Shown here piece after piece: positions 1 through 50,464 of a stretch of 64,000 nucleotides of DNA (positions are counted from its first letter, which is position 1; each line of letters opens with the position of its first letter). The position numbers were made by a program, and so were the translations under genes. Below the pieces are notes generated by a model, which did not search any database, was not told the origin of the DNA, and worked only from the letters and a program-made list of their open reading frames with translations. The stretch covers positions 20,001 to 84,000 of the forward strand of contig NZ_JASNVW010000002.1 in the NCBI RefSeq assembly GCF_030186535.1, in the 5' to 3' direction. The stretch comes from Ignisphaera cupida. Its GTDB lineage: Archaea > Thermoproteota > Thermoprotei_A > Sulfolobales > Ignisphaeraceae.

Positions 1-1365
<1,365 letters not shown>

Positions 1366-10521: not shown

Positions 10522-11457
10522 GTGAATCCATTGAAAAATATATATTTGAACAACATTACTGATGCAAGTTCTTTCCTTGGATTTAACAAATCATTTGAAG
10601 AAACACCATTCATTATCATTGGAGCTCCACTAGATATTTCAACATCATATAGAGGTGGATGTAGCAAGGCACCAAAAGCGCTAAGAGAAGCATCAAAGTC
10701 AATTGAGCTTTGCACAGCTTTTTCAAACATTGACTTAGAGCAGATAGGCTTTCATGATCTTGGAGACATAGTTATGGTGCCTGGCAATATAGCCGAATCC
10801 TTGATGCGCATTGAAAAAGTTATTCATGATGTGCTAAGCTATGGTAAAAGATTTTTTATAATTGGTGGTGAACATACAATAACACTACCATCATTCAAGG
10901 CATTTTCAAAACATTTTCAAAACCCATGTCTAATAGTTTTTGACGCTCATGCAGACTTCAGGTCAGAGTATCTGGGATCGAAATACAACCATGCAACTGT
11001 AATTAAGAGAATATCTGAGGAAGCTCAATACGAAAAGATTTTGATAATTGGAGCAAGAGCTATAAGTAAAGAAGAGATAGAGCAAAGCAAAGCTATGTCC
11101 AATAAAGTAAGTCTGATTAGAGTATTAAATGTTCTGTCTAGGGATGTAATGGAGCATATAAGAAAAGAGGTTGAGTTGTGTAAGGATCTTCCCAAGTATA
11201 TTTCAATTGATATTGATTTTATAGACCCTGCATATGCGCCTGGTGTACAAACACCAGAACCATTGGGAGTGACACCAATTGACTTGTTAAACATTTTAAG
11301 CATTGTTATAGATGAAAAGGTGTTTGTCATAGATATTGTTGAGATAACACCTACTTATGACTCATCTGAAATAACAGCATTCTTAGGAGCAAAAATAATA
11401 GTGGAAATAGCAGGTTTGCTAACGAAAAAACTTGGTATAGGAAGTGGTTGTTGGTAG
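10522..11457 (+). CDS. speB: Agmatinase/ureohydrolase
   Basis: A ureohydrolase of 311 residues, most likely turning agmatine into putrescine and urea. Binuclear manganese motifs are GGEHTITLPS, DAHADFRSEY and SIDIDFIDPA. The loop ending in PEPLGVTP is also typical. A spermidine synthase gene at 19566-20429 would use the product. The start is GTG at 10522; TTG 10531 is an alternative. AGTTTAAAAAC upstream is the likely TATA. The final TGG codon and TAG stop are antisense to the CCA and 3' end of tRNA-Gln. Arginase activity cannot be excluded by sequence. Confidence 0.9.
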   Translation: MNPLKNIYLNNITDASSFLGFNKSFEETPFIIIGAPLDISTSYRGGCSKAPKALREASKSIELCTAFSNIDLEQIGFHDLGDIVMVPGNIAESLMRIEKVIHDVLSYGKRFFIIGGEHTITLPSFKAFSKHFQNPCLIVFDAHADFRSEYLGSKYNHATVIKRISEEAQYEKILIIGARAISKEEIEQSKAMSNKVSLIRVLNVLSRDVMEHIRKEVELCKDLPKYISIDIDFIDPAYAPGVQTPEPLGVTPIDLLNILSIVIDEKVFVIDIVEITPTYDSSEITAFLGAKIIVEIAGLLTKKLGIGSGCW

Positions 11458-11527
11458 CCGGGCGGGGATTCGAACCCCGGTCACGGGGGCCAGAGCCCCG
11501 CATCCTTGGCCGCTAGACGACCCGGCT
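11452..11527 (-). tRNA. tRNA-Gln (CTG), CCA encoded
   Basis: Read on the minus strand, acceptor AGCCGGG pairs with CCCGGCT. Anticodon stem CGGGG/CCCCG has loop CTCTGGC (anticodon CTG). The T-arm is CGGGG-TTCGAAT-CCCCG. Discriminator A is followed by an encoded CCA (11452-11454). There is no intron. The 3' end overlaps the last codon and stop of speB on the other strand. Confidence 0.96.
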
Positions 11528-13431: not shown

Positions 13432-13482
13432 TCAGTGCGAGAGCTTATCATCATCCATATCAGATGGTTTGCTTATCATCAT
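13432..13482 (-). ncRNA. Box C/D guide sRNA with two guides matching 23S rRNA
   Basis: All four boxes are perfect: C ATGATGA (13482-13476), D' CTGA (13463-13460), C' ATGATGA (13454-13448) and D CTGA (13435-13432). Both guides are 12 bases (TAAGCAAACCAT and TAAGCTCTCGCA) with a 5-base internal spacer. The first guide pairs over 8 bases with GGTTTGCT at 913-920 of the 23S rRNA and would methylate U915. The second pairs over 8 bases with GCGAGAGC at 890-897 and would methylate A893. Box C overlaps the stop codon of the ATP-grasp gene. Confidence 0.88.
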
Positions 13483-14384
13483 TTTTTAGCAAGTCTCATA
13501 ACATATTTAACAATGTTTTTTGCAGGATTTATGCCAGTAACTTTTTGTATTCCTCTCCACTGTGGTGAAGCATTAACCTCAAAAATAACATAGCCATTTT
13601 TCGTTTCTCCAAAGTCTATTCCTGCATAGTGAAGTTTTAAAACATCTAAAACCTTAAATGAGTATTCCTCCAATTCCTTATCAATTTTCTCTATAGGCTT
13701 TGCAACAGCTCCTTGTGCAATATTTGTCTTCCAATTTTCTGGATTTATTTGTATTCTGTAATAAGCAATAACAATTTCATCACCTACAACCAGTATTCTA
13801 ATATCCCTATTTGGCTTATCAATAAATTCTTGTACATATATAGGCTGTTTTATTTGGGTGAGAGTTTTTCCTATTGTGTATGCAAGATCTGGATTGTCAA
13901 CTTTTATAACACCAAAACCAAGGCTGCCTATAAGAGGTTTAATAACAGCTTTAGAAAACATTTCCACAGCCTTAATGGCTGCGTAATGATCTTCAACAAC
14001 AATAGTTTTTGGAACTGGAATGCCAGCTTTGCTCAATAAGCACAAACTTAAATACTTATCTCTTGCAGTTACATAGGATTCAACAGGGTTTACAACTGGT
14101 ATACCAAGCAATTCCATGTGTTTAAATAAATCCACTCTACGAAGATATGTCTCTACAGTTGTTGCCACACCTAAATCACGTAAGATTATAGCGTTTACAT
14201 CGAAAGGCTTTAACGTGCTGCTAAAAACTATCTCATTTGCTCCTCCAACAAATGAGGTTATATCAGAAGGTCTTACATAAATTGCTTCACCACCAAGCTC
14301 TTCTATTGCTAGCATTATTTGCCTAACACTCCAAGGTGGAACTGGTTTATCGGCAACAACACCTATTCTCATGGGAATCATCAA
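13479..14384 (-). CDS. RimK-type ATP-grasp ligase
   Basis: A 301-residue ATP-grasp enzyme of the RimK/LysX/MptN group, which adds an amino acid such as glutamate to a carboxylate through an acyl phosphate. The N-terminal pre-ATP-grasp domain (MRIGVVADKPVPPWSV) is followed by the ATP-binding lobes (KAVIKPLIGSLGFGVIKV; YVQEFIDKPNRDIRILVVGD) and the metal-binding end (YVIFEVNASPQWRGIQKVTG). The substrate cannot be read from the sequence. The adjacent DUF1614 gene and a possible CitG-like gene hint at coenzyme or pterin modification. The stop codon lies in the C box of the guide RNA. Confidence 0.85.
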   Translation of the reverse strand: MMIPMRIGVVADKPVPPWSVRQIMLAIEELGGEAIYVRPSDITSFVGGANEIVFSSTLKPFDVNAIILRDLGVATTVETYLRRVDLFKHMELLGIPVVNPVESYVTARDKYLSLCLLSKAGIPVPKTIVVEDHYAAIKAVEMFSKAVIKPLIGSLGFGVIKVDNPDLAYTIGKTLTQIKQPIYVQEFIDKPNRDIRILVVGDEIVIAYYRIQINPENWKTNIAQGAVAKPIEKIDKELEEYSFKVLDVLKLHYAGIDFGETKNGYVIFEVNASPQWRGIQKVTGINPAKNIVKYVMRLAKK

Positions 14385-50414: not shown

Positions 50415-50464
50415 GTGATGAAAGGAGGGAAGAGCTGAGTCCTGATGACCTCACCCTTTGCTGA
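50415..50464 (+). ncRNA. Box C/D guide sRNA candidate
   Basis: Box C GTGATGA (50415-50421), a 13-base guide AAGGAGGGAAGAG, D' CTGA (50435-50438), a 3-base spacer, C' CTGATGA (50442-50448), a 12-base guide CCTCACCCTTTG and box D CTGA (50461-50464). The second guide pairs over 8 bases with GGGTGAGG at 73-80 of the 23S rRNA, with G73 at the methylation position; this match could be chance. It lies between two convergent genes. Confidence 0.82.

Follow-up and report, generated by a model that had tools for sequence, protein, structure and literature searches.

A predicted C/D box double-guide sRNA at the 3' end of an ATP-grasp ligase gene in Ignisphaera cupida

Archaeal double guides and 3'-overlapping sRNA genes

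In the part of the survey by Dennis et al. (2015, PMC4644070) that we draw on, 262 of 489 archaeal sRNAs are double guides with rRNA sites no more than 100 nt apart, and such double guides were proposed to help local rRNA folding as well. Guide matches of at least 9 bp were the rule there, somewhat relaxed for double guides, and the hotspot in domain V of the 23S rRNA was H90-H93. Overlap with another gene's 3' end is seen in about 25% of archaeal C/D sRNA genes, and in almost half of these cases the stop codon of that gene lies in box C (PMC7994747). Reporter tests showed such 3' overlaps to be neutral or slightly negative, and maturation was driven by the boxes and not by the flanks (PMC7994747). 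According to the reviewed account of Tripp et al. (2017, in PMC7994747), a separate promoter is unnecessary for these genes.

The DNA analysed here (the window) is a 64 kb stretch of an Ignisphaera cupida contig. On its minus strand, a 51-nt element at the end of a RimK-like ATP-grasp ligase gene very probably encodes an ordinary archaeal C/D double-guide sRNA that probably derives from the tail of the ATP-grasp mRNA and is predicted to direct methylation of U915 and A893 of the 23S rRNA. Like the double guides of PMC4644070, as far as they are described in the portion used here, its two guides are directed at rRNA sites within 100 nt of each other. It differs from them in that each guide matches over 8 bp instead of at least 9 bp, one below the rule of that survey, and in that the targets lie in H89 and not in the domain V hotspot. 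With the 3'-overlapping genes it shares an upstream gene's UGA placed in box C, and the reviewed account of Tripp et al. holds no notable difference from the window sRNA. The sRNA is thus real but ordinary, since archaeal precedents for both its layout and its stop overlap are well documented. With it, a known guide RNA family gains a member from Ignisphaera and can be traced, together with its host gene, across an archaeal order. Two H89 methylations are predicted, while the view of how guide RNAs work is left unchanged.

Boxes, guides and predicted targets in helix 89

The features of the locus and of its target, with window coordinates, are as follows.

13432..13482, minus strand: C/D box double-guide sRNA gene, 51 nt from box C to box D (from sequence, relatives and a weak RF01144 match)
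13476..13482, minus strand: box C, AUGAUGA, holding the UGA stop of the ATP-grasp gene (sequence)
13464..13475, minus strand: D' guide UAAGCAAACCAU, to 23S 913-920, predicted site U915, E. coli U2491 (pairing and E. coli alignment)
13460..13463, minus strand: box D', CUGA (sequence)
13448..13454, minus strand: box C', AUGAUGA (sequence)
13436..13447, minus strand: D guide UAAGCUCUCGCA, to 23S 890-897, predicted site A893, E. coli A2469 (pairing and E. coli alignment)
13432..13435, minus strand: box D, CUGA (sequence)
13479..14384, minus strand: gene for a RimK-like ATP-grasp ligase of the alpha-L-glutamate ligase family, whose transcript likely carries the sRNA (ORF list, TIGR00768, PF08443)
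1-1344, plus strand: 3' part of the archaeal 23S rRNA (LSU_rRNA_archaea match)
890..920, plus strand: helix 89 region of the 23S rRNA with both predicted targets, A893 and U915 (LSU_rRNA_archaea match and alignment to E. coli rrlB)

Read from 13482 to 13432 on the minus strand, the sRNA is AUGAUGA-UAAGCAAACCAU-CUGA-UAUGG-AUGAUGA-UAAGCUCUCGCA-CUGA, with box C first, then the D' guide and box D', a linker of 5 nt, box C', the D guide and, last, box D. Its four boxes are perfect by the archaeal pattern (RUGAUGA, CUGA, RUGAUGA, CUGA, with guides of about 12 nt), and both guides are 12 nt long; the pattern scan thereby confirmed the coordinates and lengths given in the initial annotation of this DNA. 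The strict four-box double-guide pattern occurs only here on both strands of the 64 kb, and it was absent from 40 sequences simulated to the window's first-order dinucleotide make-up. Folding of the single strand was nothing special (z -0.51), as is expected of a C/D sRNA.

The D' guide pairs by 8 Watson-Crick bases with 23S 913-920 (guide positions 3-10), and the D guide by 8 Watson-Crick bases with 23S 890-897 (guide positions 2-9), with an A-C mismatch at position 2 of the D' guide and an A-G mismatch at position 1 of the D guide. In both duplexes the fifth base from the box is paired, which points to U915 for the D' guide and to A893 for the D guide, 22 nt apart. The pairings, the five-base count and the spacing had all been put forward from the sequence before and were reproduced here. 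Alignment to E. coli K-12 rrlB equates A893 with A2469 and U915 with U2491. Both belong to helix 89 (E. coli 2454-2498), on its opposite strands. The earlier placement of the two sites in the peptidyl-transferase region was loosely worded: both lie in H89, with A2469 toward the far end of the helix.

The target search covered the complete 23S rRNA of a same-genus relative and the tRNA-Asn of the window. The best sites of both guides in that 23S rRNA were the H89 sites; other 23S targets were rejected, as they offered runs of 7 bases only, and no match to the window's tRNA-Asn was found. The relative's 23S rRNA stood in for that of the window's genome, whose 5' half falls in masked sequence immediately before the window; no 16S rRNA was found in this genome.

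Could the boxes have come together by chance where a coding gene ends, with no sRNA being made? A single 8-base match somewhere in the 23S rRNA is not rare: over 4000 trials, letter-shuffling produced one in 4% for the D' guide and in 15% for the D guide, and both together in 0.6%. A joint match with the two sites no more than 30 nt apart, however, arose in 1 of the 4000 trials (0.025%), and the earlier statement that two matches this close are improbable by chance now has a frequency of 0.00025 behind it. Together with the empty simulated sequences, the occurrence of orthologs in 110 of the order's 214 genomes and the existence of a curated Rfam family (see below), this led us to reject a chance origin, which has practically no probability left.

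Conservation in relatives and relation to RF01144

A sequence-only model built from 17 copies, used alongside BLAST, placed orthologs in 110 of the 214 genomes of the order and in 40 of 300 genomes sampled across the phylum, the latter nearly all from the window's own order. An alignment of the locus in relatives had been suggested in the initial annotation as a check, and it bears the sRNA out as conserved, its guide cores having hardly changed. None of the 17 aligned copies departs from AAACC in the D' core or from GCTCTC in the D core, whereas the length of the D'-C' linker is highly variable.

Same-locus orthologs score above the gathering cut-off (36 bits) of the Rfam family RF01144 (sR17), with 63.3 bits for L066, 40.0 for L075, 39.8 for L081 and 39.6 for L058, which is of the same genus; the sRNA family is hence already catalogued, as judged from these scores. 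The window copy itself reaches 31.7 bits and so falls under the cut-off. It shares the box layout of sR17, and its D guide and D box end are nearly identical (UCUCGCACUGA), but compared with the model its D'-C' linker carries 2 inserted bases and its guides differ. Since the guide cores are conserved across families and orthologs match a curated Rfam family, the reading of the locus as a double-guide sRNA with two predicted H89 targets is well supported. A literature search with the guide sequences returned only unrelated papers among the matches listed.

The paired H89 bases were the same in all ten relatives read, and because the target is almost invariant, compensatory change between guide and target is uninformative. 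The guides themselves do vary. In family f11 the D guide forms a 10-base duplex with its target (GAGCTCTCGC with GCGAGAGCTC), whereas the D' guide has drifted to CTAAAAAACCGG in L066, L067, L075 and L085 of that family, leaving about 6 pairs with H89; the D guide is still perfect in these genomes. In some relatives position 3 of the D guide is altered and no longer pairs. One of the two guide functions has possibly been lost in the four f11 genomes, and given the pairing of only about 6 bases in several f11 members, the D' site may not be methylated in every relative.

These differences bear on whether both guides are active in I. cupida. A genuine C/D sRNA might direct methylation through its D guide alone (at A893), with the D' guide acting as a weak H89 anchor or folding aid, or being inactive. 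The mismatch at position 2 of the D' duplex and the contrast in f11 between a drifted D' guide and a D guide perfect over 10 bases are in line with this. On the other hand, the D' core GCAAACC is fully kept in all aligned Ignisphaera copies and the predicted site is still paired, so that we regard a single active guide as unlikely, albeit worth bearing in mind, and retain the reading with two active guides.

The stop codon in box C and the proposed route to methylation

The ATP-grasp ORF matches TIGR00768 with 199.2 bits (cut-off 143.4) and also PF08443, and its product is 74% identical to a protein from Ignisphaera sp. It runs from 14384 to 13479, with its TGA at 13481-13479 inside box C (13482-13476), where the initial annotation had also put the stop codon. 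The stop codon lies in box C in 26 of the 42 orthologs read (17/17 in family f11, 7/13 in f1, 2/9 in f9 and 0/3 in f8). The overlap is missing in the other 16, several of which belong to the same genus, and in 6 of the 13 f1 orthologs the stop of the same gene is found 8-29 nt upstream of box C. In some families the sRNA sits behind genes other than that for the ATP-grasp ligase. As close orthologs carry the sRNA 8-29 nt past the stop, the overlap is not required, and the distribution among relatives marks it as old but dispensable.

The initial annotation had further proposed a competition between RNA processing and the mRNA end. This is unsupported here: 16 of 42 orthologs have no overlap, and the effects published for 3' overlaps are neutral or slightly negative (PMC7994747). 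A functional overlap, in which L7Ae or the sRNP bound at box C regulates the ATP-grasp mRNA and sRNA maturation competes with translation, would fit the 26 of 42 orthologs with the stop in box C, and above all the unbroken series in f11. It is nevertheless very unlikely, considering the f1 orthologs lacking the overlap, the families with the sRNA after other genes and the same published reporters. Moreover, UGA is part of the box C consensus, so stop overlaps evolve easily. That the overlap is under selection, with sRNP assembly on the mRNA tail tuning expression of the ATP-grasp ligase, we likewise consider very unlikely.

The proteins needed for an active sRNP are encoded in the genome, with matches to PF01269, PF01798 and PF01248 above their cut-offs; the fibrillarin and Nop genes are neighbours on contig 1, and contig 2 carries two genes of the L7Ae family. 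How the double-guide sRNA would be transcribed, processed and put to use we infer as follows. The RimK-like ATP-grasp mRNA would contain it as its 3' end, and trimming would then release it, as L7Ae, Nop5 and fibrillarin bind the C/D and C'/D' motifs and protect them. Both strands of H89 in newly made 23S rRNA would be bound by the two guides, so that fibrillarin would 2'-O-methylate A893 (E. coli A2469) and U915 (E. coli U2491), and guide binding might also help H89 to fold.

Two other features of the window were observed. A minus-strand tRNA-Gln (CTG) gene at 11452-11527 shares a few bases with the end of an arginase/agmatinase-like ORF at 10522-11457 on the plus strand. A second likely C/D sRNA, GUGAUGA-AAGGAGGGAAGAG-CUGA-GUC-CUGAUGA-CCUCACCCUUUG-CUGA, is intergenic at 50415-50464 on the plus strand, and DNA similar to it recurs in the genus (four other genomes) and in two more genomes of the family. 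Its D' guide pairs over 8 bases with 23S 934-941, with U938 as the predicted site, near the H89 targets.
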